In this document: piece by piece, positions 1 through 58,140 of the stretch
Layout: every line of letters starts with the position of its first letter
Numbering within the stretch: the first letter of the stretch is position 1
Origin: Liolophura sinensis
Lineage: Eukaryota; Mollusca; Polyplacophora; Chitonida; Chitonidae
Assembly (NCBI RefSeq): GCF_032854445.1
Contig: NC_088295.1
Coordinates: 78,520,028 to 78,584,027 of the forward strand
Direction: 5' to 3'
Length of the DNA: 64,000 nucleotides
Position numbers and translations under genes: made by a program
The notes under the pieces: generated by a model
Told to the model about the DNA's origin: nothing
Seen by the model: only the letters and a program-made list of their open reading frames with translations
Databases searched by the model: none

Positions 1-163
1 CTCTGGCCGACTTGTACACCCCAGTTATCCAGACTATTACTTTCGTGTTAGCAGGGAGGCTGGAATATCACTGCTCCTGAGGGGAAGGGCATTGAGGTGT
101 TCATGAAGAGCGGCTGCCATCTGAATGCTTGGAATGACCGTTTCCATGTGTGGGACGCGGAAG
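1..163 (+). CDS. Gene A exon, first half of CUB domain 1 (apparent frameshift)
   Basis: Frame 2 at the window edge reads GRLVHPSYPDYYFRV, a typical CUB opening. From about position 52 frame 1 reads WNITAPEGKGIEVFMK and on to DRFHVWDAE, a typical CUB continuation, and ends at the phase-1 donor G|GTAGGC (164). The two halves are out of frame by one base around positions 45-60, where frame 1 also has a TAG. This may be a real frameshift or an assembly error, or the exon may start after TTAG at 51. The usual first CUB cysteine is not evident. Confidence 0.6.
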
Positions 164-3100
164 GTAGGCTACGCTATACAGTACACAACTGGTTTTATGC
201 CACTATATACGCGGCAGGTAGGTTACGCTATACGCAGTAGGTAGGTTACGACATACAGGGCAGGCAGGTTAGGATATACACGACAGGTAGGCCACGACAT
301 ACACATCAGGTAGGCTTCGACATTCAAGGCAGGTAGACTGTGGCTGGCCATAGCAGCTCATTCGTTCTGACAATTTATTGGTCGAAACGTCTTACATGCA
401 TTGGCCTAACTGAAGTCGAATTGCTCAGTAAAAATGCCAGAGTGAATTCTAAGAGATAAACTATGGTATAGTGAGAATGCGATACATGCACCAATAATGT
501 CATAAGACAGTTTGATAAATATATCCAGATTTGACCATTAATGATAGGATTAATAAGCGTTTGTAAGGCCATCCCAATTTGTGTACACATGATTGATAAG
601 GAATAGCGTATGGAGCGAAATCCATAGATCTTGCTGTAGTCCAATAACATAAATACACGATACAGGATTTTGACAGGCCCATTTTTACTGAGAACTTACA
701 TGATCTATTTTATCTACTGATAAATAATCTCTATAATTTGGACACTTTACTTAAGACTAGTACAATCTTCTATTTGTCCGATATTGCTGGGCTCAGTTAC
801 TTTTAAAGCTGTCCACGTTAATTTGCTTTCGTGTATGGCATAGTGGTGGCAGTACACTTTTCAAACACTTGATCATTGTGCTAACGAGGACTTTAGTTCT
901 TATGCTTTTTTTAAAAAGAGTTGTAATATTTGATTAGTATAATATGTGTATAATCTCCATGGGATAAAATCATAAATCTCTTGATAATTTAATCCCTCAA
1001 GTGCCTTATTTACTTCTAAAAAAGTGATTGCTCTACTGTTTATTCCATGATTGCCACACTTCGTTTGTTTCCTCTTATTACAACATAAAACTAAAACTGA
1101 TAAAACGAATGAGACTGGTTGAATATCAAACAGTTGAAAACTTTGAAATCAGACTTTTAGTAAAAGAGAAACTACATTTTGTCTTCGAGGCCTTTCAAGC
1201 CTCCTCTTTTTTATTGTCTTTCTGAATTTATTTTTCATTATGTTTTGTATTACGTCCTGAGCAGAGAAATGTTTCTAGGTCTGGATATTTTATACCACAC
1301 AGGTATTCCCGTACTTCAGAAGTACTTCCGGGATAGTTGGTATGTGATGAATAAGCTGAACGTTGACATACCGGAAGTGACACGGATACAGAGTAACCGG
1401 CTGTTCTTTACCTTTAATGCCCGGGACTGGCACGGTAGTCAAGGAAAATGTCGTATACAGCTGAAACGTAAGCGCCACTATGAAAGAACAGCGTGATTTT
1501 GTATAGTTTTTACAGAAAATAGCGATAATTCAGTCAGATTGAACCCTGTAATAGAATCTCTTTTTGGTATTTGTAGGCCTGTTTCTTTCGTTATTTCTGG
1601 GTCCCTCTTCCCTAAGCACGTGGAAGTAGTATTACGTCTGCTGACTTCAAAGACAGAGTTCAAGTGGGGATGTTCGTCGGTTTCACCCAAGCTCTGTCCC
1701 CCATAATGCTGGCGCCCTCGTATAATTAAAATGTTTTTCAGTTCGGCGTAAAACAACAATCAAATAATAAATAAATTATAGCTCTATATTAACACTACAT
1801 TCATGTCATTAGAGTCGCGTTTGTAACTAATCGTATTATGTATAACAGGGGCCGATTAAATAAAAGTCAAAATTTAACCTAGAAATTAAAAACTTTGGTC
1901 ATCTCATAAGTGGTATTTCATGACAAATTCTTCAGACTTTCAAATTCCTGTACTAAGTACTAAGCATTGTGCTAAGGTTTTAAATTTGATCTCTGCCAAA
2001 AATGTCTGTGTGGAGCATCAAGCTTAGTGGTATACAATAATTACAGCGTACGTAACTTTTATGTGTTAAAGCATATGATCTACCAGCGAGCTGTGACAGT
2101 CCCCTACCCGTTCGGCATGGGCGCCTGGTGGGTGAAGACCATCGGGTGGGACAATCTGTACAGTTGTTCTGTGAACAAGGGTTTTACTTACCTGATGGGC
2201 ACAGTGGGAGTATGTCGGCAAGGTGTGGCAATGATCGCAAGTGGCACCCTGCCATTTCTACATGTGAAGGTAAAGACATGGAGTTAGCAAAGAACAGGAT
2301 AGTCTGCGTGTCAACGATTTTGTGCAATAAAAACAAAAATGTGCAATAGCCCTACCCATTGTCAACTCATACTCAGTCTGCTTCTGGGGCAGTTTAGTAC
2401 TGGTTTGTGTTAGGTTTGTGGCTGGAGGAAAGCGGAGTGCTCCTGGTAAACGGGCGACCTTTGGTAAATTAATTTCAAACTTCCCCACCCGCGACGTACA
2501 GACTAGCACCACAATTGATTTTCAAAGAACATAAGACTGTGCAAATGACCCCATGTCCAATTTCGTCCGCTTATTTTCAATATGCTTGCAGAAACAAAGG
2601 CAGCGGAAGGATCTTATATTCTCTGTTCAATGTCAAAATTCAACTGGGACGTCGCGTGCCGTCACATAGCATATGTAATATTATATTACGTTGAATAGCT
2701 TGAGTAATCAACTCTCGTCTTTGTGTGTAAAATGTGGCGTTATGTCATAATCATTCATTCATTCTTTGTGTGTACATATGCACGGACCTGTCAGATGCTA
2801 AGCTGCATTATTAGCCATGACAAGGCATCGCTGTAAATCAGTCGTTTTGTTTGTCTCTTTGTTAGTTGATCAATGGAACATTGTGTTCCTTCTACCTTTT
2901 AACATAACCTGTTCATTTAACGAAGGTTCCTAGTGCTAGTCGACACGAGATTCGATATGCCAGGGGAATGTCACAGACATGTGGTTTGTGTTTCAGCGCC
3001 ATGCGGGGGAAACCTTACGGCACCTGATGGCGTGATATACTCTCCTGGATTCCCAGACATGTACCCTGAAGGCCAAGTCTGCGTTTGGCGAATTGAAGGC

Positions 3101-6100
3101 GCTGTAGGAACGATAATCTCTCTTAACTTTTCCCTGTTTGACCTTTTAATTGGTCAATATAGAGGTGAGAAATATACTTCTGACGTGTAGCCTCACCATT
3201 TCTAAATGGGAGAAGCGTAGAGGATTTGACGTGTGGAGTGTAAAAAATTTCATCGTGCTGATGGAGCGTAGAAGATGAATGTTAGAAGTGTCGAGTGTAA
3301 TAATTATTTATTTATTTATTTGATTGTTTTACGCCGTACTCAAGAATATTTCACTTATACGACGACGGCCAGCATTATGGTGGGAGGAAACCAGGCAGAG
3401 CCCGGGGGAAAACCACGACCAGCCGCAGGTTGCTGGCAGACCTTCCCACGTACGGCCGGCGGGGAAGCCAGAATGAGCTGGACTTGAACTCACAGCAACC
3501 GCATTGGGGAGAGACTCCTGGGTCATTACACTGCGCTAGCACGCTAACCAACTGAACCACGGAGGCCCCTAAGGGTGTAATAATGAATAACATTATGCGG
3601 AGTATAGAAGGTGAGATGTATGGACTTTAAAGGATAAATGACATGGTCATGGAATACAGGAGATGAATGCTGTGACACTAGAGTGTAAAGAATCAATTTA
3701 ATGATGAATGTAGAAGATGGACGGAGTCCATTGGATGTATGTTATAAGAGTGGATGAATGCTGGAAGAGTGGAGTGTATCAGGCGGATGCCAGAGGAGTA
3801 GGGTGTAAGGGATGAATGCTCGAAGAGTGGAGTGTATCAGACGGATGCCAGAGGAGTAGGGTGTAAGGGATGAATGCTGGAAAAGTGGAGTGTATCAGAC
3901 GGATGCCAGAGGAGTAGGGTGTAAGGGATGAATGCTGGAAGAGTGGAGTGTATCAGACGGATGCCAGAGGAGTAGGGCGTAAGGGATGAATGCTGGAAGA
4001 GTGGAGTGTATCAGACAGATGCCAGAGGAGTAGGGTGTAAGGGATGAATGCTGGAAAAGTGGAGTGTATCAGACAGATGCCAGAGGAGTAGGGCGTAAGG
4101 GATGAATGCTGGAAGAGTGGAGTAAGATGATGAATGTTAGATGGGGTGGAGTGTAAAAGATAAATGTCATGATGAAGTGTGTTTAGGATGAATGGTGGAA
4201 AGGTGGAGTGGAAGAGATGAATACTAGAAGGATTCCAGGATTGGATGGGTGAACTTTAGAGTGGAGTCTTGCTTAAAGAAATCTTGCTTAAAAGATGAGA
4301 TGGCATGGATTATTGTTAGAAGGTTGAGTAGTTTTGGGTAGTAATCCTGGGTTTGTAAATACTGGAACAGATGTATGGTCTTCTTGTCTGTTGTAGAACA
4401 TGATAATGTCAGCGTACAAGAAGAATCCGGCAAATATCTGATTAAAGAGCTCACAAGAAATCGTAATGGCCTAACCATTTTGTCAGAGACCAGTACTTTG
4501 CTGTTGACTCTCAACTCCATACGTTTGTATCGATACAAACAGAATGTCCAAGGCCTCAAAGTCTTTTATCGAGGTAAACTATGTTAGCAATTTCCTATTG
4601 TTCTAATCTTTTACTCTTTTATCAGCAGTCTTGATATCGTTTTCCAAACCTATTTGCTACCGGAAGGAATGTTCAATTCTTTCAAGCGAGTAGATTTCTT
4701 TAGAATTGTAAAATACACTTGAGTTTGGGCAAGAACGCTCCAACCCCACCGCAATAGACAAGACGTATGCCCTATAACTGGTTTGATGCCCTTTAACTGG
4801 TTATATGTGAATTGACCAAGTTTACATGTGGTCATGGGTTTCAAATGTGGGTATAATGGAGACATACATTGTTCTGTGTAGTTAAGGTAGGTTACAGGAA
4901 TGTAGCACAGAGGTGTTGGTTAATTTTTATTTATTATTTGATTGGTACTTTACGACTTTATGATTGAAGAATATTTTACTTATTTGACGGCGCCCATCAT
5001 TATGGTGGAGGAAAAGTAGGCAGAACTCGGGCGAAAGCCACGCCCATCTGCAGGTTGCAGTGCGACCGGAGTGGAAGCTAGCATCAGCTCGAACTCATAG
5101 CGATTCTATTGTTGAGAGGCCGCTGAGTTATGTCAGCCTTGGGTAAACCCTATCCAGTAGTGACATATTAAAGCGTGGTTCCTACACCACTGACTCGAAA
5201 TGTCGCATTCCACCCATTATTACATTATTCCAGCATTATAATGCAAGGCATTCATCGATTTTGAGCTTTATATGATAAAATCTTAACTGATATTTAGGTA
5301 AGGTAAAGTAGCTGCTATACGTTTACTAGTATGTTGCAGAATGTTGTTATTTGGTGTCACTGTCAGATTTTCTACACTTTATCCGATTCCGTTCACAGCA
5401 TTTACCCCGTATAAATGTAGCTCACTCCAGGAAGTACCTTTTATCGATGCACGAAAGATACAACAGCAACCAGAGAATGATACAGTCACAGTGGAATACA
5501 TCTGCCAGTACCCTTATCAAGTTGTTGGTTCTCCAATCATTACGTGTCTAGCGACCGGACAGTGGGACAACCCAGAACCAAGCTGTGCAGGTACATCTGT
5601 AGGTTCTACGTAGACATTAGTAATACAAACGTCGGTAGATAGTGTGACAACAGTATATAAGTACCGCAACAACAGTTTGTAAATACTGCGACAACAGTCT
5701 GTAAAACTACCACAGCAGTCTGCAAATAGTGGGACAAGTCTGTAGATAGTGCTACAACAGTCTGTCGATAGTGCTACAACAGTTTGTGCTGTAAATGGTG
5801 TTACGACCCAAACTGTCTGCATTATAAAGAGATCGCTTGTTTGAAATACACGACAGTTTAGCTGTACAAAAAAGTAACCAAAACCAGCAGATTTTATTTT
5901 TCAACAGTTTATTGGGTTTAACAAGAACAGATAACAAGACTTATACAAATACTAAAGTACTTAAGTTTAACAAGAAAGGATAGCAATATCTATACAAATA
6001 CTAAGGTACTTACATGTACAAAGGTGTCAAGTCCAAAAGGACGGATATATTCCACGATATATACCACACAGGCATAGATGCACAAAGGCAATATTCACAA

Positions 6101-9100: not shown

Positions 9101-12100
9101 ATCACAGCCCTTAGACAGTGCCTAGAGGGAAATGGCGGACGTGTGAATACCACATCAGAAAGAGAACTGAACTGCACCATACTGGCAATCGCGCACTCTT
9201 TTGGTCAGCTGTTTGGTGGAACTGTGTCTGGGCTGGACACTAGTTTGAACTGCAGTAGTTTTGCAAACGACACTGATCTATCTCCAGCAATGCTGCAGTG
9301 CCTGGAAACCACTTCAGCTGAACCCTGTATTCCGTGTAGAAATTCTGTGTCATCTGATACCAAGTTCTGGATGTCTTACTCAGGTAGGTTTAAGCACAGT
9401 TCTCCAATAACTTGCGATTTTATTGTTGGACGTTAGTGATTTTTAAAATTCGAAACATTGGCAATTCTTTACTTGATGTTTAACATAAGGGTCAACTATT
9501 TCTCGGTCATTTGTTGGTATACTGTAACGTGTTAATTGAGGCGCCATACATGATGTTTTTGGTATGTTACACTCAGTCAACTGACTCTGTCCGAAAATTT
9601 GATCTTCGAAATCAGTTTACGTTGTGGTTCAACAAGTATTACACCAGGTGTGGTAGTTTCCTCCTGAATTTGCATGGTTTCCTCAGGGATCTGTCTAGTT
9701 TCCTCCATGATCTACTTTCTTTCCTCGGGTATATGACCGGTCTCCTCCTGAATATGTCAGGTTTCCTTGGGGATACTTCTGATTTCTTCTATCTGTAATC
9801 GAGGTTGTTGTCATATAAGGGAAATATTCCAAATTACTATTGCACGTGTGCAAATGATATATCTGGATTGAATTTTATATTTCAACAATGTGTAAAAAAG
9901 CATTTGTATTTCAGCTGACGTCCCCCTGAAGATGTGTCAGAAGTCCGATCTCATGACAGCCATACCAGGTATCGATAACGCATACCTTTCCAGAGGGCTC
10001 AGCCAGACGTTAGTAGGTGACAACGCGTATATCAGCTGCTCTGGGGGTTTTGTATTATCCGGAGGGGGCAATGGACGAATAAACTGCAGTCATAGTGGAC
10101 GCTGGGATTTAGTAGAAGGAGCTAAATGTGAGTGAGTTAAATGTAAGTGATTGAGTCAAGATTTAAATGTAAGTTATTGAGTCAAGATTTAAATGTAAGT
10201 TATTGAGTCAAGATTTATATGTGAGTTGTTGAGCCATAATATATTTGAAAGTTATTGAGTCAAGAGTCAGGAGCTAGTCATTTATCCAGCTGTTAAACGT
10301 GCGCTGTTATATAACGAATGAGGAAGCAAAGTTAAAACCCATTTCTGGCTGGTTCTGCGGCGACTTGGGATAGAAGATAAATTTTGCTTTCTCTTCGTTC
10401 TATTATCGTGTAACATACCATCTCTTCTTTTTTCCTAGTAAAGTAGGTTGGATTTAGGTGAAGCATTTCAGTCATACAGTCGCTTACTTGCCAGCATCGT
10501 ATGAGTAGAAACAGTATTGAGCATGGAATTAAACAGCTGTCAAATAAATCAAAGAAATTATATAGATGTAATATTTGCATGTTTCAGGCACGTGTGACCG
10601 GACCTTCACGACAACATCCGGCACTATTACACCTTTGTCAGGTTACGAATCCTACCGGGCTGACTTACAGTGTACATACAACATTACCGTGACGGAGCGA
10701 GACTTAATAAGGCTGCGCTTTGTGAGCTTGAATCTCAGTAAGATTAATCAATACTATACTGTGCAATGAAGGAACATTGACCAACACTATAATGTGTAAT
10801 CAAGATCTAACCATTACCATAGTGTATAGTTAAAGGTGATTAGCCATTGTTATGCTGTACAATGAAAGAAATTTAACCAATGCTATAACATAAACAGTGC
10901 AACAAAAGTAAGTTCCCCCCAAACGTTGTTTCATATCTCCCGTGACCTGTACCAGATGGCAATGAAATTGTGCACACACTATCCCAGTAATCAGGCTGAC
11001 GTGGTATATTATGGATTAACGTGCAGGTGCAGTCCTGCGCTAATGGGCATGCGCAAACTGAATCAGACTGATGCGGTATATCAAGGATTAACGTGCAGGT
11101 GCAGTCCTGCGCTAATGGGCATGGGCAAACTGAATCAGGCTGACGCGGTATATCAAGGATTAACGTGCAGGTGCAGTCCTGCTCTAATGGGCATGGGCAA
11201 ACTGAATCAGACTGACGCGGTATATCAAGGATTAACGTGCAGGTGCAGTCCTGCTCTAATGGGCATGGGCAAACTGAATCAGACTGACGCGGTATATCAA
11301 GGATTAACGTGCAGGTGCAGTCCTGCGCTAATGGGCATGGGCAAACTGAATCAGGCTGACGCGGTATATCAAGGATTAACGTGCAGGTGCAGTCCTGCTC
11401 TAATGGGCATGGGCAAACTGAATCAGACTGACGCGGTATATCATGGATTAACATGCAGGTGCAGTCCTGCGCTAATGGGCATGCGCAAACTGAATCAGAC
11501 TGACGCGGTATATCAAGGATTAACGTGCAGGTGCAGTCCTGCTCTAATGGGCATGGGCAAACTGAATCAGGCTGACGCGGTATATCAAGGATTAACGTGC
11601 AGGTGCAGTCCTGCGCTAATGGGCATGGGCAAACTGAATCAGGCTGACGCGGTATATCAAGGATTAACGTGCAGGTGCAGTCCTGCGCTAATGGGCATGC
11701 GCAAACTGAATCAGGCTGACGCGGTATATCAAGGATTAACGTGCAGGTGCAGTCCTGCGCTAATGGGCATGGGCAAACTGAATCAGGCTGACGCGGTATA
11801 TCAAGGATTAACGTGCAGGTGCAGTCCTGCGCTAATGGGCATGGGCAAACTGAATCAGACTGACGCGGTATATCAAGGATTAACGTGCAGGTGCAGTCCT
11901 GCGCTAATGGGCATGCGCAAACTGAATCAGGCTGACGCGGTATATCAAGGATTAACGTGCAGGTGCAGTCCTGCGCTAATGGGCATGGGCAAACTGAATC
12001 AGGCTGACGCGGTATATCAAGGATTAACGTGCAGGTGCAGTCCTGCGCTAATGGGCATGGGCAAACTGAATCAGGCTGACGCGGTATATCAAGGATTAAC

Positions 12101-18647: not shown

Positions 18648-18664
18648 GTGAGTGCCTCTTTGTC

Positions 18665-30533: not shown

Positions 30534-31097
30534 CTTTCGTTCAAAGAGGTCCGTTATCTTGTCTACCCCCAAAATGTTCAACTCGGGTGAGCCGAGCCCA
30601 GAAATTATTACAGCAAATTCGGCGGTCAGTTGGCAAAGATTAAAAACTATGAATTAAACCGGTTTTTCTCTCAGGAGATGGATGACGATCAGGAGCTAGA
30701 TGATGGTCGGGAGCTGGATGACGGTCATGAGTTTTGGATTGGGCCTTACCGGAGGCCTAGCTTAACGACAAATGAATTCGAGTACGAATATACTGATGGT
30801 GAGTATGCATTAGTAATAAACTCCCATCCCTCTCCCCCCAAAAGTGTTATTCTCCCAACGTATGGCCCTGAAGCAATCTCTGGGTTTTGGGCGTTTATAA
30901 ATAAACTATGCAAAAAACTGAATAATAAACTCAAAAATTTTTTTTTTGTTTTTTTTTTTTGGCAGGAGAGGAGCCTACTGAAAATGTTTTCTCCAATTCC
31001 TTCAACAACATCTATATCAAAGTATGGAGAGACATAGGAACTTGCCCTTGGTACCTTGGTGTGAAAACATTACGGAGACGATTTATCCTCCAATACG
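30534..31097 (+). pseudogene. C-type lectin pseudogene related to gene C
   Basis: Two exons, about 30534-30798 and 30966-31097, align with the lectin exons of gene C and keep the phase-1 donor G|GTGAGT and the acceptor TTTGGCAG. The first reads YLVYPQNVQLG, a TGA where gene C has Trp, then KFGGQLAKIKN and EFWIGPYRRP. The second reads GEEPTENVFSNSF, GTCPWYLG and RRFILQY. Against gene C three cysteines are lost: Cys to Arg at 30552, Cys to Tyr before KFGG, and Cys to Leu in the final FICQY. A short stretch, ELDDGxE, is expanded to three units. With an in-frame stop and broken disulfides it is probably dead; a start downstream of the stop cannot be excluded. Confidence 0.75.
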
Positions 31098-31183
31098 GTA
31101 TAACCCATAAAGGTAAGAACATTACAGGTAGGTGGTCTTGAAAAAATAAGAACATGTGTGATTCTCAGTTTTCAATATGTGGA

Positions 31184-40800: not shown

Positions 40801-43800
40801 TAGCGAACCAGTCATGTTCTCTTACTCTTAGTGATCCAGTCATTTCCTCTTACTGAACTTGTCACGCCCTGGTAGTGAACTAGTCACGACCCCATCCTGA
40901 ACCAGTCATGTCCTATAACTGAACTAGGCGCACCCTGGTAGTGAACCACACTCACCCTGATGATGTCTGAAACACTCAACATCGGTCTGTTATTAAACCA
41001 AAGTTACAGTCAATCAAATCAGTAATTTTTAAACAGTATACTTTTTTTGTATGTATGAATGGGTTGTACTCTCGCGTTGGTGAATGATGTTTTTTGTTTG
41101 CGCCAGGTTTAGAGTGCAGTGCCTGGGAGCCATCGCTTACCGAAAAAGTCCTCCCTGTCCTGGACACGTGTTACCTCGTCTACTCCAAATCCATAAAGCT
41201 GAGCTGGGAAGACGCGCAACGGCACTGTGAGAAGTTTGGCGGCCTGCTGGCGAAAATTAAAAATTCTGAGACAGACATTTATCTCTCACAGAACCTGGAA
41301 GATGGGGAAGAATTTTGGATTGGTGTTTCGAGACGGCCGGCTGAGGGGTCAAGTGGCTACGAATGGGTCTACACCGATAGTAAGAGGATCGTATAATGAA
41401 TTGCATGTTTGAAAGCTGAATGGATTTATCTATTACTGACAATTGTGTCACGAACTTTTTGCACGCTGAATGGTCATGTTTGAACTGTTTGCACACTAAA
41501 TGGTTGGTTATATATTACTTATGACCATGCTTGAACTGTTTTACACACTAAATGGTCAGCTATATATTACTTATGACCATGCTTGAACTGTTTACACACT
41601 AAATGGTCAGTTATATATTATTTATGATCATGCTTGAACTGTTTACACACTAAATGATCAGTTGTATATTGTTTATAATCATGAAATGAACTGCTTGAAC
41701 GTTGAGTGGTCAGTCGTCTTGCTAATGATCCAAAGATGAAAATGCAGGGTTAGGCGTCCTATATAGCGCATTTAGGCCAATTTATTAATAAAAGAACTCA
41801 TATTGGCCAATGGGAAGTCGAGCTTAAAACATTTGTCTTTCCATCTTAATCATAGAATTTTAACCTTGGATATCTTCTGCGCTTATTTTATTTCTAAAAT
41901 CAATATTTTATCATATTCACAAAAAATCCTCCATATGATTTTATGATGGAAATGTATTCTTCTAAAAGGCAGTTAATATTCAGCTATCTGTTAAATAACT
42001 CATGACCACTATCAGAATTGCCTTTTGCGCGGGACACGTGATACCACTATCTCTACATAGTGACATGATGGGTCACCATATTAATAAGCAGAAAGACAAG
42101 TTAGAATACATAATGTTAAACTCCATAAACCCGTGTTTAAGATTATCAGTTTATTGCCGCTAGTAACGACTGAAAAACTATATTTTCCAGGCATATCGCC
42201 AACTATACAGTCGTTTTTGTGAGTGTGATTATCTCCCTTTAATGAGGGGCCTCGTTGGCTCATTTAGTTAGCGCGCTTGCCCAGGAGCCTCTCACTAATG
42301 TGGTCGCTGTGAGTTCAAGCCCAGCTTATGCTGGCTTCCTCTCCGGCCTTACGTGGGAAGGTCTGTCAGCAACCTGCAAATGGCCGTGGGTTTTCCCCGG
42401 GATCTGCCCGGTTTTCTCCCACCATAATGCTGGCCGCCGTCGTATAAGTGAAATATTCTTGAGTACGGCGTAAAACACCAATCAAATAAATAAATAAATC
42501 TCCCTTTAATGAAAATTGTCTTGACTGAAAAGTGTCTTAAATCGAGTCATAGTAAGGAATTATATTTCACCTATCTTGCAGAGGAGAAAGCTGTTTTCAG
42601 TCTGCTGAATGACCCACCAAATTACATGGAGACTACCGTGGTTCATGTTTTGTACATGGTCGTGTGGAAAGAGCTGGAGACTTGTCCCTGGCATAAGGCA
42701 GAACCTGGGGATACGAGACGCTTCATTTGCCAGTACAGTAAGTATCCCTACCATTTCTTATCACAAGGGTTTGAGGACGCTCCATTTGCCAGTACAGTAA
42801 GTATCCCTACCATTTCTTATCACAAGGGTTTGAGGACGCTCCATTTGCCAGTACAGTAAGTATCCCTACCATTTCTTATCACAAGGGTTTGAGGACAAGA
42901 GACGCTTCATTTGCCAATAAAGTAAGTATCCCTACCATTTCTTATCACAAGGGTTTGAGGACAAGAGACGCTTCATTTGCCAATAAAGTAAGTATCCCTA
43001 CCATTTCTTATCACAAGGGTTTGAGGACAAGAGACGCTTCATTTGCCAATAAAGTAAGTATCCCTACAATTTCTTATCACAAGGGTTTGAGGACGCTCCA
43101 TTTGCCAGTACAGTAAGTATCCCTACCATTTCTATTCACAACAGTTTTGAGGTCAAGAGAGGTTTCATTTGCCAGTGCACAGTAAGTATCCCTACAATTT
43201 CTTATCACAAGGGTTTGAGGACGCTCTATTTGTCAGTACAATAAGGATCCCTACCATTTCCCATCACAAGAGTTTGAGGACAAGAGACGCTCCATTTGCC
43301 AGTACAGTAAGCCTCCCTACCATTTCTGATCACAAGAACTTGGGGACAAGAGATGCTTGTTTGAAAGTACAGTATTAAAGTATCCCGACCATGTCTGATC
43401 CCAGGAGCTTGAGCACAAAACACGCTTTATTTGCCACCGCAGTAAATTTCCCTGCCATTTCTAATTAGAGGAGTCTGAGGACATGAGGCGCTTCATTTGC
43501 CAATAAAGTAAGTATGCCTACCATTTCTGATTAGAGGAGTATGAGGACAAGAGATGCTTCATTTTCCAGGTCAGTAAAATATCACCAGCATTTCTGATTA
43601 AAGAAGCTGATGACAAGAGTCACCTCATTTGCGAATACAGTAATTATCATAACCATTTCTGAACAGAAGAGCCTGGGGAAAAAGAGTCGCTTCGTTTGCC
43701 AGTACATTTATGATCAGAAGAGCCTGAGGAAAAAGAGTCGCTTCGTTTGACAGTACATTTATGATCAGGAGAGCCCGAAGAAAAAGAGTCGCTTCCTTTG

Positions 43801-46800
43801 CCAGTACATTTCTGATCAGAAGAGCCTGAGGAAAAAGAGTCGCTTCGTTTGACAGTACATTTATGATCAGGAGAGCCCGAAGAAAAAGAGTCGCTTCGTT
43901 TGCCAGTACATTTCTGATCAGGAGAGCCTGAGGAAAAAGAGTCGCTTCGTTTGACAGCACATTTATGATCAGGAGAGCCCGAAGAAAAAGAGTCGCTTCG
44001 TTTGCCAGCACATTTATGATCAGAAGAGCCTGAGGAAAAAGAGTCGCTTTGTTTGCCAGTACATTTATGATCAGGAGAGCCTGAGGAAAAAGAGTCGCTT
44101 CGTTTGACAGTACATTTATGATCAGGAGAGCCCGAAGAAAAAGAGTCGCTTCGTTTGCCAGTACATTTATGATCAGGAGAGCCCGAAGAAAAAGAGTCGC
44201 TTCCTTTGCCAGTACATTTATGATCAGGAGAGCCCGAAGAAAAAGAGTCGCTTCGTTTGCCAGTACATTTATGATCAGGAGAGCCTGAGGAAAAAGAGTC
44301 GCTTTGTTTGCCAGTACATTTATGATCAGAAGAGCCTGAGGAAAAAGAGTCGCTTCGTTTGCCAGTACATTTATGATCAGGAGAGCCCGAAGAAAAAGAG
44401 TCGCTTCGTTTGCCAGTACATTTATGATCAGGAGAGCCCGAAGAAAAAGAGTCGCTTCGTTTGCCAGCACATTTATGATCAGAAGAGCCTGAGGAAAAAG
44501 AGTCGCTTTGTTTGCCAGTACATTTATGATCAGGAGAGCCTGAGGAAAAAGAGTCGCTTCGTTTGACAGTACATTTATGATCAGAAGAGCCTGAGGAAAA
44601 AGAGTCGCTTCGTTTGACAGTACATTTATGATCAGAAGAGCCTGAGGAAAAAGAGCCGCTTCGTTTGCCAGCACATTTATGATCAGGAGAGCCTGAGGAA
44701 AAAGAGTCGCTTCGTTTGCCAGTACATTTATGATCAGGAGAGCCCGAGGAAAAAGAGTCGCTTCGTTTGCCAGTACATTTCTGATCAGGAGAGCCTGAGG
44801 AAAAAGAGTCGCTTCGTTTGCCAGTACATTTCTGATAAGGAGAGCCTGAGGAAAAAGAGTCGCTTCGTTTGCCAGTACATTTATGATCAGGAGAGCCCGA
44901 GGGCATTCATGAGAAGTGCTATAGCCACAATAGGTGCTATATTTTTTTTACTTCTTGTCCTGTTTTATATGTCAAATCTCATAAATTTGGTTTTGTAATT
45001 CGACAAATGCTTGAACGATTATGCTGTACTTCACATCGACAGTATTTAAACTTACTGCTACAGCTATAATTGTTCGTCTCTTGACATGTTTGATATATCG
45101 GGTGGGCATAAAAAAATGGGCCGTACTTTGATGCTGCAGTGCTCCATTATCCTTTGTTCAAACCCTTTCAAACTTTAGACACTCAAATTGTTAATACACT
45201 GACCAGTTTTCAAGGTCATAGCTTGAGTAGTCTGTGCACAGGGTCAAAATGAAAACATAACCTCAAAAACGCACGTTCCGGTGACACACATTGCATCACC
45301 TGTCAGGTATCATGAGTAGAGCGAGCGCTGCACCTGTGTGACGCGCGTCAATAAAGGGTCATCTGGAAAAATTGTCTGGCTCTAGTGTCAGAGAAACCCT
45401 TCTGCCAGACAGGCACAAGTTTTTGCTGAATCAAGATGGTTTTCTCTGCGGCGGACAAGGAATAGATCGCCTTTTCAAGTAAAACAAGGTAGAACGTCAT
45501 TTTGAAATGTCCGGAACATGCGTTTTGGACTTTTTTTTTATTTTGATCCCATGAACAGATGAAATTGAAATTTGGTCTGTATACTAAGAACATAATGGCT
45601 TTTGAGTGCGTAAATTTTAGAAGCTGACGTAAAAGGGCTTCGGAGGTATTGGGTGTCAAAATACGGCCCATTTTTTTATGCCACCCGATATAGCTAATAG
45701 TGAGTAAACAGTTGTTATATTATTCTTTCAGCCTATACACCCCCTCCTGGAATAAAGTTCCCGTCGATATACGGAGGTAAGACAAGAAAGATAATAATTA
45801 AAAAGCCCATGTTAAGTCTATGGTCTATGGCTACGAACGTGTTGTATTAGCATGGAATGAAGACATTGCCTTGGTCTGCGAGGAAACAATAGCTGCTGAC
45901 CTTCATTGCTAACCCTGCACACTAATTTTATTTATTTATTTATTTATTCATTTATTTATTTATTTACTTGATGGGTGTTTTACACCGTACTCAAAAATAT
46001 TTCACTTATACGACGGCGGCCAGCATTATGGTGAGAGGGAACCGGGCAGAGCCCGTTGAAAGACCCACGACCATCCGCAGGTTGCTGGAAGACCTTACCA
46101 CGTCCGGCCGGATTTTTTTTTATTAATTTTTAAAAAAAATACATGCTCATTATTTCAGAGTAGGGCTCCTCCTGACCTACTTGTAGGCCTATGTACAAAT
46201 CCATATATGCAACATATTTCCATTAATCTTGATGACTTTTTCATGATGGCAGGCGACGTATAACAATAAAACGACAAGGTACTGAGCCAAAGCTGTAAAG
46301 AGGTGTGACTCGTTATTGTAACTATCAGCTGGCAGGATTACTCGTTATTGTTGAAATGTGCTTATGTCGTAAGATTTTTTTACTTTGCCAATGTCCTGAT
46401 CTCAAAGAACTAGTGTCATCACTCGTTAATACTGAGCAGATTTAAAGGTTTCCACTGCATAGCCTAGTTTTCATGTCGCGAATTTCGCCAAACTTTTTCA
46501 CAACAAATATATATAGGTCAATAATCAAGCATATTTTGACTGAAAACACAAAAAACAAAATGCATCTAGTATAACTTAAATAGAGCACATAAGGTGTACA
46601 AAAACATAACCAATTTCACCATGACAACTGTGGGACGGTATATCATTCAATTATTCTGCAAGGATATAAAAGGTCAGTTAACCTCGATATTTTGGATTTC
46701 CACCTCAGCTATCAGCGATCAGGGAAGCTTTTTAATTTAGGATGCTCCAGTGGTGGTGAGTAGAGTGGGGAGAGAGGGGGGGGGGGGGGGGGGGGGGGGG

Positions 46801-49237: not shown

Positions 49238-49429
49238 TATTACTGCTGTCGAACTTATGAAATATTTGCTAGTCCTGTTAGTCCGGCGTATTGCGCTTAA
49301 TTGGGTTATTCCTTAACACTGCAAAGAGAAAAGTTGTGATAACTCCACTATGTTTTGTCTAGGAGCAGGAATAGGACGCTATACATATGTACGCGTTTTT
49401 TTATTTGTCTGTCTATTATAACATATGGT

Positions 49430-49672
49430 ATGGTATCGAGCTGGGAATTTGCATACACTGCTTGTGGAACCTTGGTGCCATCAAGCGATCGTTTATTTGA
49501 AGGCCACTTGTCTTCCACCAATATCTGCACCTCATATGTGGGAAAGTTCATAAGTAACTTGCCAAGGGTCGGTGGTTCCCACCGGGTACTCCGGCTTTCT
49601 CCACCCATGAGACTGATATAAGCGAAACATTATTGAGTGGAGCAAAACTCAAATAAATTAAATAAATGGTAT
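49430..49672 (+). mobile_element. SINE-like family 3 copy
   Basis: Contains ggtggttcccaccgggtact, a ctccggctttctccaccc block, and an AAATAAATT tail. It resembles 54066-54345. Lies just downstream of gene C. Confidence 0.6.
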
Positions 49673-52600
49673 ACTGCCCCATGGACCACCGCACCTTACC
49701 AGGTATCTAGCAGACCTCCTCACACTAGGCCGCAGCCGAACAGATATTTGTGACATTTGAGTTGATGAGTCTGACATCTGAAGCATGCATTACCCATATA
49801 AATTATCACTCAGAAAACACATTATTATGTTGGTGTCTTTCCTGTATACTAGAGAAGTGGCCTATATGTCAGATACTACTTTATACTGTAATTTTTGGAG
49901 ATATAAGAAATGCAGGCTTTTGTTTCCCGTTGAAAAGATTTCTAACTTTATCATTGCGTAATTTGCTTAAGAACTTTTTGGATACCCGACGATGTACTTT
50001 GTTTGGGTATTCAGCAATACGCCTGACAAGCGTGATGTCGCTCAGACGGTAATAGACATACGGCAAAGAGATTCTTCCCTATATAATTAAAGAGAAAGAT
50101 TTTAACTAAAACATTCATATTGATCGTTTTTTCGAACATACCTTATTATGCATAATGTATGATGTATTTGTAAGTTTTGCTCTCCCTTAGGAGGATATTG
50201 GACATATTTTCTTTATTCACGTTTCCCAAGAACAGCGGAGATTTTCTTTCGGTCAGAATTATATTTCAAATATATTCGTATTTCTTAAACTGGCACGTGG
50301 AGTCGAGTCTTGTGACGTCAGCTTTGTAAACAATGGTAATGACCGCTTTATGTGGATCCTGTCATTGAATGAGCGATACATACCAACAACGTATAACACA
50401 AGTTATGAAAGCAGGCTGTGAATTGCCCGATTAGTGAGCGGTATATGTGAATTTAAATAGGTCTGTGTCAAAAACAGAGGCACAGAGAGTAAGTCCAGAG
50501 CAGTGACCACTAAGTGATAGCTCGCAAATGGCTACACGTAATCGGCGAAATCCGACCTCGTGTCAGTTTACCTTAGTTAGTGTTTTATTCTGACTGTTCG
50601 TCTAAAGGCTTAATTTGTAGCAACTTACACGCTCACTAACTCCATAGTCTAAGCAAGATGAGGTAAGTATATTCATTTATTTTCACTGCAATTTATGCAC
50701 TGGTCTAAAATTACTCAAAATGTTGTAAAGTCATCTCATTTAATAAACAATCACAGGAAAACAACGCACAGGGAACAGGTTTACAGGATGCATAGCACAC
50801 CAGCAGAATCCTGATTTATACAGGGGATGCAGAGCACACCAGCAGAATCCTAACTTAAGCAGGAATATAATACAAAAAACTACATCGTAGACAGTAAATA
50901 CCAGGCTTGTGGTAGTGAATTATTGGCACCGTAAATACAACCCAGGGTCCAGCAGTTCGAATGTGTATCAGCTAATACTGATATTTAATATTTAAAATTT
51001 TATTTTAATTTTACAAACTCAAACTCAGCAGCCGATGCACTTCTGCAAAGTCAAAGTATAACAGCAGCAACTTTAGTTCATATTTAACACACTGTTACAC
51101 ATTTTTTCGGCTATGTGCAGAACTGAAGACTTAGAAGTTAAATCTGTTATTAAAGCTTAAACCAGTTGTTAACAATCGTACCCAGAAGCCTGGTCCCTGT
51201 GCCACGAACTAGGAGTGAACAGGGAGCAGTCTGTGCATATATGGGTATTAACCATAACCAGTTTTGCTTTGATGCTTTCAGGTGAAATGGTATTGAAATT
51301 AAACTGCTTTGTGTTGACTAATTGGTGAAAATATGCAAATGTTTCCCAGTGTAGATTGTCGCATTTTCAAGCAGAGCAAACATTATCAACCATCTAATTT
51401 CTCACAGCTGGGGACGTGATCCTTTATTTATTTATTTATATATTTATTTGTTTTATATATTTATTTTTTTATCTCTTCATGTGTTCATAAATAGTATACC
51501 TAGAGTATGCAAAAATTTACGGTTGTTTGATTCAATTTGATTCTGCTCAGAAGTTAGTTGTATCATATTGATTTGCGTCGTTCAAGTAGAGGCTGATCAA
51601 TTAACCCATACATGTAACAGGTTATCATTTCTCTTTGTATATATCTATATATTCTTAGTTATGTTTCCCTGTGCTATGGCTATGTTCTAAATCATTGTAG
51701 ATGGAATTATGTTAATAAAACAATCATTGTTCATTAATTTATGCATTTGTTTACGTATTTGTTTATTTGCAAGTTTGCTTGAGTTTTAGCATAACATTCA
51801 TTTCTTGAATATTTAATTCCATTTCCTATGGAGTGATCTTTATGTGACGAGGGATAAGATTATCATGTAACTTGCAGCCAATAGTAAAGGTGTTATGGAA
51901 GAGAATTTTTGTTTTTTGTTTTGGATAATTCAAAGCTGTGAAGAGGGTTACAATCTATTCACCTATATTTAGGGTCTACGCTCCAAACTGCAATCCTTAG
52001 AGTTCCACTACGTGATTTGTTTTCACATATGTGGTCGACTGAGTGATCAGTTGGTCAAATGATTGACTGGTTGGTGGCGAGAGCAATGAATCGATTGGTA
52101 AATTGGTCGGCTTTGTATAATCGGTTTGTAGGTTAGCTGGAAGGCTTACATCTCGAATGCATCGAACGACAGGTAGGGTGATTCATAGTCCAGTTCAATC
52201 GATTGTTTGAATGACTGGTCGATTTACTTCTTATTCGGTCAGTGTGTTAATCTGTCCGGTAGGTTGACGTCATTTAAATGACTGGTCGGTTATTGAACAT
52301 CCGGTTAGTCCGTTGATCTGTCCCGATAGGTTGACGCCGTTTAAATGAACGGTCGGTTATGAACATAGGGTCAGCCTGGCGATCAGGCGTTTGATTTGAC
52401 CGGTTGCCGGTTGTTTGAATGACGGTTTATTGAGCGTATGGCAAGTCTGTCGATTTGTCGGATAAATAGACGGCAGCATAGAGAGTGAAACTGGCCTTTT
52501 ATCAATTTACCTCAGTTTGGATTTTATTCGAAATGCTTAAACAGTAGCGGCTTATACATCTCTAAGCTCACGCATAGCTTATTCAGAATTAAGTAAAAGA

Positions 52601-52984
52601 TTATACATATTTAGTAACTATCTGAAAACATTGGAACTGTACGTAAAATGATGAGTTGGAAGCTGGTAGTTGAAGAAAAAGAAATCTGGCAGTAGAAATC
52701 TCTCATACATTGTTACTTTGACCGATTAAAGTATGGTCAATCCTGTACCGGTACGAGGTATAGACATGTTCTTCAGCCCTTTGGTATGCTATTTAATAAA
52801 GGTAAAAGCAAATTACCTTACATATATATATCTCGCTATATGTTGCTCGGTACCGAGATTTACACGCGGTTTTATCTGCAATTCTGGTTTTGTTATCAAA
52901 AGCTTCTCCAATAGGTTGGTAAAACAGTTTGAGAAAAGAGTTGTTTCCCTTGCCATCACTTAAAAATTTACCAATTTGAATGTT
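49673..52984. other. Intergenic stretch with degenerate repeats
   Basis: No exon was recognised. At 49675-49745 a segment with ccaccgcaccttaccaggta repeats one at 14125-14170. At 50650 an ATGAG|GTAAGT could be a tiny first exon, but nothing follows it. About 52190-52450 holds three to five degenerate units of about 68 nt with gttgatctgtccggtaggtt. Confidence 0.4.
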
Positions 52985-53218
52985 TTTTTTTATGTCGTAC
53001 TCAAGAATATTTCAGTTTTACGACGGCGGCCAGCATTACGGTGGGAGGAAACCGGGCAGAGCGCGGGGAAAACCCATGACCATCCGCAGGTTGCTGAAAG
53101 ACCTTCCCACGTACGGCCGCAGAGGAAGCCAGCATGAGCTGGACTCACGGCGACCGTGAGAGGCTCCTGGGTCATTAGGCTGTGCTAGCGCGCTAACCAA
53201 CTGAGCCACGGACGCCCC
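52985..53218 (-). mobile_element. SINE family 1, near full-length copy
   Basis: Core and head in minus orientation, with the head ending aaccaactgagccacgg. The tail is a T-run. Confidence 0.85.
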
Positions 53219-53427
53219 TTCCTGAAAAAAAAGATGGTTTTGTATTTAACGTGTCTAAGAGTGAAATGTCTAATGAATGCCCGTCCATATGTTACTAACG
53301 AAAATCGGACTGAGATAAAGGTTTTCTAACCAAACCTGAGTAGCAAAAAAAGTTTTCCAAGATGAGTAGTAATTTGTGTGATCAGACATATTCTTCAAAT
53401 ATTAATCATGGATTAAAGGCATTTATT

Positions 53428-53528
53428 TCAAATTTTTTATTTATTTATTTATTTGGGGTTTTACGCCGTACTCAAGAGTATTTCACTTATACGACGGCGG
53501 TCGGCATTATGGTGGGAGGAAACCAGAC
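53428..53528 (-). mobile_element. SINE family 1, 3' fragment
   Basis: ATTT tail and the first part of the core to gtgggaggaaacc. Confidence 0.75.
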
Positions 53529-53645
53529 ACATTTTTCAAACATAATCTGCTTATAATTCTTCGAAATTTCCATGATGATATCAGCAAAGTAACTGTATGG
53601 GCTACAGATAATACTGTCCAGAAATATACATAATGATGTATTTGG

Positions 53646-53848
53646 TTGATATATTTATTTGATTGGTGTTTTACCCATTATTCAGAGAACTATGTTTCAC
53701 TAATATGTCTCCGGTCAGCATTATGCACGAGGGAACCGGATAGAGCACAGGGGAAATCCACGGTCATCCACAAGTTGCTGGCAGATCTTTCCACGTATAC
53801 GACCGAAGAGTAAGCTAGGATGACCTGGAACTCGGTGCCTAAGTAGTG
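53646..53848 (-). mobile_element. SINE family 1, degraded copy
   Basis: Recognisable core with ccacggtcatccacaagttg; many substitutions. Confidence 0.6.
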
Positions 53849-54065
53849 GGTATATCTCTTAAGAACATGTCGTTATGTTCTTCATATTTGTGCGCCAACT
53901 TGAATGTTGCCGCTTTCTATGATTCATATTTTTTGACAAAATACAATTTACCACAAAGCTGAGTATAATTCGACTATAGTGAATTATATTCACGTCAGCA
54001 TCTTTGCATGACGTCACATTTGCATTTTTGTGTTCCTTTATCTTCCTTTTTCACAACGCCAAGGT

Positions 54066-54345
54066 GTTATTGTTTATATTATTGGGAATGGACCGCTGTG
54101 GCCCGGTTAAAGCGCTTACCTTTCCATCTCTAGAATCCATGAGACGTGTTCTATTCCGATCTCGGACTGGAATTTTCTTGATTGCCCTTCCTCCATTGTT
54201 CCTGGGGCTTTGGTGGGAAAATTTGCAAGTAATTCGCTGAAAGTCAGTGGTTTACACCCGGTACTCCGGTTTTCTGGCCGTCGTATTATATAAGTGAAAA
54301 ATTTTTGAAAATAGAGTTAAACAAAAATCACACCAATAAACAAAC
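54066..54345 (+). mobile_element. SINE-like family 3, longest copy
   Basis: Begins gaccgctgtggcccggttaa, has cacccggtactccggttttc, a gtgaaaaatttttgaaaat block and a short A-rich tail. The head resembles a decayed tRNA promoter. Confidence 0.6.
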
Positions 54346-54362
54346 ATTTATAAAATATAAGA

Positions 54363-54535
54363 ACGGTAAATTGTGATTTACAATATATAGCTCAGATTAT
54401 ATGATTTATACAGTATGTTGCTTACATTATATGATTTATACAATATATAGCTCAGATTATATGATTTATACAGTATGTTGCATACATTATATGATTTATA
54501 CAATATATAGCTCAGATTATATGGTTTATACGCCT
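54363..54535 (+). repeat. 60-nt tandem repeat, about three copies
   Basis: Each 60-nt unit is itself two related 30-nt halves built on atatgatttatacaatatat. Confidence 0.8.
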
Positions 54536-55026
54536 AATTAGGCATTATGTGCGCACAAAAGACCACAGATTTTGACTCCTCAAGAAAAGAATTATTTCTG
54601 TCTTGAGGACAATAGAAAACAAAAAAATGTATTATGCTTAAAGAAAGTTCTTAGATAGCAAAATTAAATATAAAGGAATGCAAAGGCAGCTAACTGGAAT
54701 GGAGACGTCATTAATTTGGAAAACAAACAGTCAATCAACAAACGAAAGTTTTGCAATAATAGCAAAGTGCACCAATATCATAGTTTCATACCATCACACT
54801 GAGAACTGACGAGGCTGTATCATGTTATACAAGACAAGTTCGTCATTATTTACTGACAATCAAAAGCACAGGCGAGACAGGCATAAGCTATTCAGTCGTA
54901 GCCATTTAATACTGGCTATGTACACACGTTCAAAACGTTTCAGTATATACAGTGTACTGCTACAGTCATACTGAAATTCAGCTATAACGGCCTACCCCTA
55001 CCACCGCTGTGAAAGAACACAACGGG
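54536..55026. other. Non-coding stretch upstream of gene D
   Basis: AT-rich DNA without repeats or exons that I can name. It probably carries distal promoter sequence of gene D. Confidence 0.4.
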
Positions 55027-55034
55027 TATAAATA
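55027..55034 (+). promoter_or_regulatory. Candidate TATA box of gene D
   Basis: TATAAATA in a GC-richer context (acgggtataaataccgtcac), 334 nt upstream of the start codon. A 5' UTR of about 300 nt would follow. No start site is shown by the sequence. Confidence 0.4.
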
Positions 55035-55367
55035 CCGTCACGGACCTTTCTTTTGTCCGCGAACTCAGACCGGTTTAAAATGAAAAGAACGAACTGAATA
55101 AAAGAGAGTGGAGCATGTCCCACCTTCCATGCATAACAGCATGTGTTTGCGAGGGCTTAATACACAGTAAGGTGTGGCTGTCGTGGAGACTGCCCACTTG
55201 GGCTGGATCCGCATGTTGTGGTGTATTACTTTATACAGTTGTGACTATCTTACGATCACTAGTCACATATCCTATACCTGTCAAGATCGGAGTAGGATGA
55301 GATAATCAGCGAGTTTCGTAACAACTGGCGAGAACCTGTACACAAGGGCGGCCCCACTTTCACTATC

Positions 55368-55425
55368 ATGGCCTCGGCGGCTGCTCTACAAAGCGTTACC
55401 ATTCTCACACTAGTAACCATTGCCC
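55368..55425 (+). CDS. Gene D exon 1: signal peptide
   Basis: ATG opens MASAAALQSVTILTLVTIA and ends at C|GTAAGT in phase 1. The hydrophobic core is clear. Short GTAG/TATG runs follow at 55460-55510. Confidence 0.85.
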
Positions 55426-58140
55426 GTAAGTATGGCGTTTACTTTTGTTTCCAGTCAAGTAGGTAAGTAAGTAGGTATGTATGTATATAATTATGTATGT
55501 GTATGTGTGTGTGTTGAATAAGGCCATACTCAAAGATATTTTATTTTATGAGTAGCAGAGATGTAGGATAAGGCCCTAATCAATAGTTTTACTTTATCAG
55601 TAACATATAAGTTGGATGAAGTTGTACTCAAGAATATTTTACTTTATGAGTAGCAGAAATGTTGGATAAGGCCCTAATTAGTATTGTTACTTTATAAGTA
55701 CGGGACCGGTAGATCCAGGATCAATCCTTGGTCGAGTCACACTAAGACTTTAAAAGAGGAAGTTGTAACTTCCTCGCTTGGCGTTCAGCATGAAGGGGAT
55801 AGTGCAACGACTGGTTGACCCGTATCAGTATAATGCTCGGGCGGGCGGCTTACTTGCCTTCGTAAGTCGTCTCAGTGATGCAGCACTAAATAAAAGAGCG
55901 GTGGAAATCCGTCCTGCAACAAGGAGGCACATTACACGTGCATGCACCCTAATGATTCCTTCGTCGTCATATGACTTGAAAAATTGTTGAGTACGACGTT
56001 AAACCCCAAGCACTCACTCACTCACTCACTTTATAAGTAACATATATACTGGATGAAGTTGTACTCAAGAATATTTTACTTTATAAGTAACAGAAATGTT
56101 GGATAAAGCCGTACTCAAATATGTTTTACTTTATGAGTAACAGAAATATTGGATAAGGCCGTGCTCAAGAGTATTTTGCTTTATGAGTAGCAGGACTGGT
56201 GGATAAGGCCGTGCTCAAGAATATTTTGCTTTATGAGTAGCAGGACTGGTGGATAAGGGCGTACTCAAGAATATTTTACTTTATGAGTAGCAGGACTGGT
56301 GGATAAGGGCGTACTCAAGATATTTTTACTTTATGAGTAGCAGGACTGATGGATAAGGGTGTACTCAAGAACATGTTTTATTTGCAGTGTGTCGTCAGAA
56401 ATGTTATAGCTGTGCGTTTAACAACCACGCGACAGAGAAGCGAGGAATTGAGTGCGTGCACAGTCCTCAGAATGCCTCCGTTGAGTGGGCGGTGCGTTGT
56501 CCAGACCCCTATGACTGCTATTACACAACCACAGTGGATATAGGTAAACCACTAAACTGTTCAGATCCCTGTGTGTGCTATTACACAACCACAGTGGATA
56601 TAGGTAAACCTCTAAACTGTCCAGATCCCTGTGTGTGGCTATTACACAACACACAGCTATACACCAGGTTTCATTCCACCATAATGCTGGCCGCCGTCGT
56701 ATAACACCAACCAAATAAATAAATATGCACAGGTATACCACCGCGTTGTCCAGACCCAACTGACTGCTATTACACAACCACAACAAATACAGGTAAACCG
56801 GTGCGTTGTTCAGACCCTTTGACTACCAATATACCACCGCAGTACACACAGGTAAATTACTGCGCTGGCCAAGCCCTAGCGACTGCTATTACACAACCAC
56901 AGTGAAAACACTGCTCAGGCTTAAGGGATTACTACTTCACAAGGACAGTGTATACAGAAAAAGCATTGCACATGTCAGACACAGGAGATGACAGTAGAGT
57001 AGCTTCTGGTATAGTAGTTCCTTTTGTCCGACCTTTTTCATAAAAACGTTTGTAAACTGAATTTGAAACCTTAATTTAAGCAGCATATACCTGGTAACCC
57101 AACAACTTCTCTACTAACTAACTAACTAACTAGCTAACAAGGGAAATTTGAAACGTTGTCCCTCAGTTTTGATATTGTTGTCTGGTGCCAAAGAATTGTA
57201 CATGCATCAAGTTCTTATTATACAGATGTACAAATCTTTGTACATATGTAAGAAAGATTTCTATGTTACGTAAGGTTTCTACATATGTCCAAATAAAGCC
57301 AAGCTTTAGATATATGTACAAATATTTGTACATATGTAGAATAAGAGTTGGGCGCATGTGAGAGACAATTTTTTCAATCTTCGCTTGTTAGTTAGTTAGT
57401 TAGTTGTTAGTTGTTAGAAGCTGTCTGGTTGTCCAGTATAGGCTGATTAAATTAAGTTTTAAATTTTATTTTAACTGGTTAAACTCCAGTTACAAACGTG
57501 TTTTAAAAAACGTCGGACGAAAGAAACTACCATACCATATATACTCTCTACTGTAGCTGTTGTTCTTTATAGATTGCGCTAGCGCAGCGTAATGACCGAG
57601 GAGTCTCTCACCAATGCGGTCGCTGTGAGTTCAAGTCCAGGTCATGCTGGCTTCCTCTCCGGCCGTACGTGGGAAGGTCTGCAGCAACCTGCGGATGGTC
57701 GTGGGTTTCCGCCGGGCTCTGCCAGGTTTTCACCCACCATAATGCTGGCCGCCGTCGTATAAGTGAAATATTCTTGAGTACGGCGTAAAACACCAATCAA
57801 ATAAATAAACAAATCTTTATAGATTGATTGACTAATAAAATCAGTGATTATCAATGAATATCTTTTTCTTCCTCTACCAGGTGCTATGCAGTTGTTGTCG
57901 ATCAATAGAGGCTGTGGTAACATCGGCCCCACCAGTTGTAACATAGTCGGGCTGCGTGAGATGTGTATCTATTCCTGCTCTACTGATCTGTGCAATGGTG
58001 GACTTAGCGGGGTGCTGGTGGAGACAGGAGACCCGAACAGCGCGAGACAACACGTCAGCTACTTCAGTCATCTGACGTCATCCGCCATTGCTTTGCTCAT
58101 TGGTCTGCTTATAATGAACCCGTATCATGGTCAGTTGTAG
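55368..58140 (+). CDS. Gene D: Ly6/uPAR-domain surface protein
   Basis: Three exons, 55368-55425, 56388-56543 and 57881-58140, join in phase 1 to a 157-residue protein: signal peptide, one Ly6/uPAR domain (opening CYSCAFNNHA, closing CIYSCSTDLCNGG), a short linker and a hydrophobic end (SSAIALLIGLLIMN). The exon plan is shared with genes B and E, and the exon 2 core IECVHSPQN matches gene E (IECVHAPKN), so D and E are closest. Likely GPI-anchored. Exon 2 is flanked on both sides by tandem arrays that include its splice sites. Confidence 0.9.
55510..56387 (+). repeat. 50-nt array in gene D intron 1, ending on the exon 2 acceptor
   Basis: About eleven 50-nt units (tggataaggccgtactcaag, aatattttactttatgagta, gcag...) lie at 55510-55695 and 56035-56387. 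The last unit runs ggataagggtgtactcaaga then acatgttttatttgcag and is the exon 2 acceptor. Earlier units end in ttttactttatgagtagcag, an acceptor-like stretch. A family 2 SINE interrupts the array. Confidence 0.88.
55697..56033 (+). mobile_element. SINE-like family 2, longest copy
   Basis: Ends gtacgacgttaaaccccaag followed by (CACT)n. Its 3' part has a short open frame without meaning. Inserted in the 50-nt array. Confidence 0.7.
56388..56543 (+). CDS. Gene D exon 2: N-terminal half of Ly6 domain
   Basis: Phase-1 exon: CRQKCYSCAFNNHATEKRG, IECVHSPQNASVEW, VRCPDPYDCYYTTTVDI, donor G|GTAAAC. Six cysteines sit as in the other two genes. Reading through the donor stays open for two copied units. 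Confidence 0.9.
   Translation, partial: CVVRNVIAVRLTTTRQRSEELSACTVLRMPPLSGRCVVQTPMTAITQPQWI
56500..56925 (+). repeat. 60-nt array copying the end of exon 2 and its donor
   Basis: After the exon, units of 60 nt repeat the PDPYDCYYTTTVDI codons plus GTAAACC. The first two follow in frame (20 codons each). Later units diverge (gactgctattacacaaccac near 56760 and 56880) and keep AG|GTAAA or CAG|GTA junctions. A SINE tail fragment at 56668-56737 interrupts. Confidence 0.88.
56668..56737 (+). mobile_element. SINE family 1, 3' fragment in the exon-derived array
   Basis: Reads ccaccataatgctggccgcc then an AATAAATA tail. Confidence 0.75.
57101..57422. mobile_element. Foldback (MITE-like) element bounded by inverted ACTA/TAGT repeats
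   Basis: Left arm acttctctactaactaacta (57101-57140) and right arm gttagttagttagttgttag (57381-57422) are inverted copies of about 35-40 nt. The interior has a 24-bp palindrome at 57312-57335 (atatgtacaaat and its complement) and a near-copy at about 57225. No coding capacity. Confidence 0.55.
57573..57815 (+). mobile_element. SINE family 1 copy, start of head missing
   Basis: Begins gcgctagcgcagcgtaatga, has intact B box-like gagttcaagtcc, core and AATAAATAAAC tail. Very close to the consensus of the family, so a young copy. It ends 65 nt before gene D exon 3. Confidence 0.88.
57881..58140 (+). CDS. Gene D exon 3: C-terminal half of Ly6 domain and tail
   Basis: Acceptor CTTCCTCTACCAG, phase 1. 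It reads AMQLLSINRGCGNIGPTSC, REMCIYSCSTDLCNGG, then VETGDPNSARQHVSY and the hydrophobic tail LTSSAIALLIGLLIMN, six more residues and TAG. Confidence 0.9.

Follow-up and report, generated by a model that had tools for sequence, protein, structure and literature searches.

The stretch of DNA considered here (the window) comprises 64 kb of contig 1 of a 609 Mb chiton genome present as 632 contigs. Exons in the window, located via their translated domains, encode CUB, Sushi, C-type lectin and Cys-rich domains, while donors and acceptors were scored with a simple matrix. As the gene models are predicted, the donors discussed below are putative. Tandem arrays make up 20% of the bases of the window (TRF, score of 60 or more, period of 12 or more), as compared to 5.4% of the first 154 loci sampled elsewhere in the genome (TRF, score of 60 or more, any period). 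At 62673-62892, a 110-bp unit is found in two copies of 100% identity; by eye, we take this unit to belong to a SINE-like element recurring elsewhere in the window. The initial annotation of the window proposed that tandem arrays are seeded directly on the 5' splice sites of four exons, belonging to three unrelated genes. The features relevant to this proposal are the following:

58..163, forward strand: exon end, CUB-like by eye, with donor GTAGGC at 164 (donor score 8.9)
205..336, forward strand: 23-bp array of about 5.7 copies (TRF)
9915..10127, forward strand: Sushi exon (Pfam Sushi, 1.7e-06), with an exon-final T followed by donor GTGAGT at 10128 (score 8.1)
10119..10265, forward strand: 15-nt direct repeat across the junction, then a 26-bp array of about 5 copies
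31037..31097, forward strand: similar lectin exon end lacking an array (best match 15/30 at the corresponding position)
42582..42737, forward strand: second exon of a C-type lectin gene, ending RRFICQY, with donor GTAAGT at 42738
42715..43706, forward strand: array of 59-69-bp units, 14 recognizable copies over about 1 kb
43654..44902, forward strand: 51-bp array of 24.5 copies (TRF; unit alignment)
56388..56543, forward strand: Cys-rich exon, with donor GTAAAC at 56544
56498..56656, forward strand: 60-bp array of 2.6 copies (TRF)
56728..56901, forward strand: diverged continuation of the 60-bp array, about 2.9 units
62283..62430, forward strand: exon paralogous to 56388-56543, with an array-free junction (best 30-mer match 14/30)

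The positions assigned to the four donors proved to be correct, with the first G of the GT lying at 164, 10128, 42738 and 56544, and with all four junctions being in phase 1. Likewise, the proposed range of unit lengths, 24 to 66 nt, agrees with the measured values of 23, 26, 59-69 and 60 bp. The association of an array with the splice site itself is clear at 42738 and 56544 but weaker at 164 and 10128.

At 42738, the first unit of the array combines the end of the lectin exon, the donor and the start of the intron. A 30-mer around this junction recurs at +59 with 29/30 matches, and GT is present in 11 of the 13 copies that follow the first. When the exon was combined by eye with the one before it (41107-41379), a Lectin_C match of 3.1e-09 was obtained, most of which falls within that earlier exon. 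Alignment of units revealed that the 51-bp array found further downstream is built from the unit of the 42738 array minus 16 nt that carry the donor core. As this derivative reached 24.5 copies without a donor, array growth does not need one. The 51-bp units (17 codons) of 43654-44902 also maintain long open frames, of 152 and 126 aa, in which an RFVCQY-like motif is repeated.

At 56544, the first unit, as delineated by TRF, consists of the last 46 bases of the Cys-rich exon together with the donor, and a 30-mer around the junction recurs at +60, again with 29/30 matches. Six copies of the unit are recognizable, with GT being found in 3 of the 5 that follow the first. We take the exon to be Ly6-like. 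A second array, of 50 bp (56028-56388), reaches the acceptor of the same exon, such that the exon is flanked by arrays on both sides; the 50-bp unit aligns to a 28-base segment ending at 56383 with a score of 30, the best of 300 shuffles scoring 23.

At 164, copies of the junction were detected at +54, +77, +100, +123 and +146. This similarity is real, given that 21/26 positions match and that 0 of 2,000 shuffles reach this value, although the first copy, at a distance of 54 nt, is out of register with the 23-bp array proper (205-336). When this array alone was used to query the genome, with very common words being skipped, it was found at one place. By eye, the CUB-like frame upstream of the donor (1-163) seems to be broken by one base, and this may reflect a pseudogene, a sequencing error or an unrecognized exon border. 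At 10128, where the start of the exon was placed at a weak acceptor (score -1.3), the 15-nt direct repeat matches at 13/15 positions, a value reached by 2 of 2,000 shuffles; the 24-mer match on its own is not significant (134 of 2,000 shuffles). Support for an array at 10128 is thus modest and near the limit of significance. Both this marginal result and the apparently broken frame upstream of 164 could be read as pointing to chance similarity or an error of assembly. Such an origin is, however, highly improbable in the face of the 29/30 matches at two sites, the shuffles at 164 and the six further loci presented below. As to the assignment of the four junctions to three unrelated genes, this is plausible in light of the Pfam Sushi, CUB and C-type lectin exons but is not proved, with exon 58-163 matching 0 Pfam families and exon 56388-56543 presenting no Pfam match above the cut-off.

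Two exon ends similar to those at 56544 and 42738, respectively, served for comparison. Exon 62283-62430 shares 43% protein identity with exon 56388-56543, while the lectin exon end at 31037-31097 may have its own donor near 31098 (score 2.0) or at 31113 (score 10.4). That the junctions at 62431 and about 31098 carry no array suggests that a splice junction was present before its array formed.

Recurrence of such arrays was considered outside the window in exon families chosen for convenience. Genome-wide profile matches comprised 150 Sushi, 50 Cpn60_TCP1 and 120 Lectin_C hits, from which 95, 27 and 77 exons, respectively, were kept on the basis of short open frames and, for Sushi, also a near-complete domain. 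A random draw with spacing then provided 66 Sushi, 24 Cpn60_TCP1 and 64 Lectin_C exons, i.e., 154 exons with 600 bp on each side, none of which lies in the window and a few of which lie nearby (e.g., 17 kb upstream). Another 36 Myosin_head and 4 Sushi exons, not drawn at random, were added for the donor side only, bringing the total to 194. Usable donors numbered 182, with 12 exons having been dropped because no donor scored 3 or more, whereas 137 acceptors were usable, with 17 of the 154 having been dropped because no acceptor scored 1 or more. In one case (L098), the donor was shifted one unit upstream by hand, as the caller had taken the second copy. Across the four exon families, 6 of the 182 donors were covered by the first unit of an array, distributed as follows:

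Sushi exons: L027, L044, L045 and L057 (4 of 69 donors)
Lectin exons: L098 (1 of 58 donors)
Myosin exons: L164 (1 of 34 donors)
Cpn60_TCP1 exons: no donor-spanning array (0 of 21 donors)

Five of the six arrays begin 16-40 bases within the exon, with that at L057 beginning, according to TRF, only 4 bases within. At L164, a conserved myosin motor exon ending QCVIIS is followed, in the 600 bp examined, by seven 66-bp copies of the exon end, each with a donor of equal score, giving eight in all; at L044, copied donors score up to 12.7. Summed over ten arrays (four in the window and six elsewhere), GT is kept in 69 of the 86 copies that follow the first. Comparison of the ten units revealed no similarity in 43 of the 45 pairs at p 0.01, which speaks against a dispersed repeat carrying splice sites. 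These mostly unrelated units, together with recurrence at 6 of 182 donors elsewhere, uphold the earlier view that the units are unrelated and that what the arrays share is position rather than family. Mirror arrays, in which the last unit contains the 3' splice site and the start of the exon, were found at two loci, L064 (C13:29494283 region) and L066 (C13:25373469 region).

Whether arrays start at donors more often than expected was judged against a background of array starts lying 21-480 nt into the same introns. Six starts at donors were seen versus 1.66 expected (ratio 3.6, 95% interval 1.3-7.9, p 0.007, or about 0.016 in a conditional test taking both counts as uncertain), a measure that was adopted after the data were first examined and is not the test set beforehand. 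At acceptors, 2 of 137 were seen versus 1.43 expected, i.e., no excess. In the window, 2 of 16 donors lie in a first unit by strict TRF versus 0.35 expected (p 0.048), although the window was chosen for this feature and is not independent. Because random birth of duplications does not predict a 3.6-fold excess, this value counts against plain duplication. Instead, it would agree with donors being mild hotspots, at which tandem duplications arise or are retained more readily, possibly owing to breaks linked to transcription or splicing, to pausing close to the exon end, or to longer persistence of arrays. The triple tandem of AGGTAAGT, which per occurrence is 1.55 times as frequent as its reversed control when counted by copies, points in the same direction.

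Other comparisons speak against donors being hotspots. The pre-set comparison of donors and acceptors was not significant (7/144 versus 2/137, p 0.17, these counts being rows with a score of 50 or more picked afterwards by eye), nor was the comparison in the larger set (6/182 versus 2/137, p 0.47). Genome-wide, the triple tandem of GGTRAGT per occurrence relative to the reversed word gave ratios of 0.88 at periods 19-49, where one control word was compared, and 1.10 at periods 50-80, where GGTRAGT falls within the spread of three control words. At periods 50-80, the control words themselves differ more than twofold (1.6% to 3.9%), making this a blunt test; for two of these words, the single counts were estimated from 34 and 56 hits in 305 kb. 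Within the first 90.4 Mb of contig 1, at least 13 distinct AGGTAAGT arrays versus at least 15 for the reverse were counted by eye among the matches listed, a weak count in which the strands may not be evenly represented. By eye, too, the exonic share of the unit varies from about one-third (164, 10128 and 42738) to about three-quarters (56544, L027 and L044), such that breakpoints do not seem tied to the donor. A junction 30-mer copied within the next 300 nt with at least 20/30 matches was seen at 6 of 144 donors versus 141 of 2,014 positions (7.0%) in intron interiors, which, at face value, runs against a donor excess; as the interior windows contain inner units of arrays, array starts were preferred over this count. 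When other arrays were considered as displaced copies of a junction, none of 11 (9 of the 17 interior arrays and 2 adjacent ones) matched its own junction significantly better than it matched other junctions, the lowest p value being 0.072. The array found just after the donor at 10738 matches its junction at only 15/30 positions and was not counted.

As such, donors may have an excess of array starts, but this has not been established, and any such excess is probably not large genome-wide. The earlier proposal of a duplication process acting at these junctions gains weak support from the excess of array starts, but none from the donor-acceptor comparison, the genome-wide tandem donor words or the variable breakpoints. 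Donors may be mild hotspots, although we consider this rather unlikely. It is also unlikely, and slightly more so, that active 5' splice sites are true hotspots, at which arrays arise or persist two- to fourfold above the remainder of the intron by way of a process connected with transcription or with U1 binding, yielding thousands of tandem-donor exons. That number follows from about 3% of donors carrying arrays and from the 100,000 or more introns assumed here as usual for a genome, which would together provide thousands of natural tandem-donor exons in a single genome.

The arrays are probably minisatellites that arose by ordinary short tandem duplication of segments that happen to straddle a 5' splice site, and that were tolerated. 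The commonness of tandem arrays in this genome, as reflected in the 20% of the window that they occupy, counts in favor of such an origin. The variable breakpoints, the growth of the donor-less 51-bp derivative, the array-free comparison junctions and the acceptor-spanning arrays at L064 and L066 likewise fit with it. Were the left end of the duplication to lie in the exon and the right end in the intron, then the exon and the first donor would be left unchanged and all further copies would fall in the intron, such that the duplication would be tolerated and could expand. It would be silent if the first donor were preferred over the copies. For this to occur, the first donor would have to win against near-identical copies, presumably via the full upstream exon.

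Selection for extra donors, as offered in the initial annotation, would instead have the copies serve as alternative 5' splice sites that lengthen the protein or as U1 snRNP landing sites that aid exon definition. The many copies that keep strong donors, as at L164 and L044, are in keeping with such roles. Still, the donor cores of the copies are neither significantly better nor significantly worse preserved than other parts of the unit (mean difference 0.028, p 0.23, 10 arrays), a second donor both in frame and open is found at only 2 of 10 junctions (164 and 56544), and array-bearing donors are neither weaker nor stronger than others (median 8.3 versus 7.6, p 0.35), such that selection for extra donors appears very unlikely. 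The neutrality that ordinary duplication would entail is judged from these ten arrays, which are too few to rule out weak selection.

The initial annotation knew of no described class of such repeats, yet repeats of the same build exist in human genes. In intron 18 of ABCA7, a VNTR has a 25-bp unit that opens with the two bases of the canonical exon 18 donor (GT), with use of the donor in the next unit retaining 25 bp and shifting the frame in 2 ± 1% of transcripts (PMC5954066). Like the chiton arrays, this VNTR consists of tandem units, the first of which holds the donor of the exon; unlike them, it is human, length-polymorphic and disease-linked, and its unit, as described there, starts at the GT without exon bases. 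The 31-bp VNTR of human CBS, c.1444_1467+7(16_21), by its name includes 24 exonic and 7 intronic bases and is found in 16-21 copies (PMC2630376). Here, as in the chiton, the unit spans the exon end and the donor, although a single human gene is concerned. In the same gene, 844_845ins68 duplicates the intron 7/exon 8 junction and is tolerated because the splicing machinery strongly favors one site (PMC2630376), but here only one duplication is involved, and it affects the opposite end of an intron. In duplicated human genes, internal tandem repeats at exon-intron boundaries alter splice patterns, differ between paralogs and can give rise to new introns (PMC2812944), whereas in the chiton similar junctions exist without an array.

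In the predicted chiton gene models, the first unit holds the donor (clearly at 42738 and 56544, less so at 164 and 10128), and several donor-bearing copies follow head to tail, as in the ABCA7 and CBS repeats. In PNAS in 2007, Zhuo et al. reportedly described introns that came from tandem arrays, with splice signals having been copied and both ends of the intron deriving from the repeat. In such cases, the junction would be absent where the repeat is absent; in the chiton, by contrast, the comparison junctions for 56544 and 42738 exist without an array. A literature search, covering titles and the openings of abstracts, found no genome-wide survey of donor-spanning arrays. The class is therefore already known from human genes, with what is new here being its commonness in sampled donors.

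If about 3% of donors indeed carry arrays, then this genome would offer a natural experiment on 5' splice site choice among near-identical copies a few dozen bases apart. To our knowledge, such choice has so far mostly been studied in minigenes. The arrays described here also place the human ABCA7 and CBS repeats in a genome-scale context. Should the donor excess be confirmed, it would implicate a mutation process associated with splice sites.
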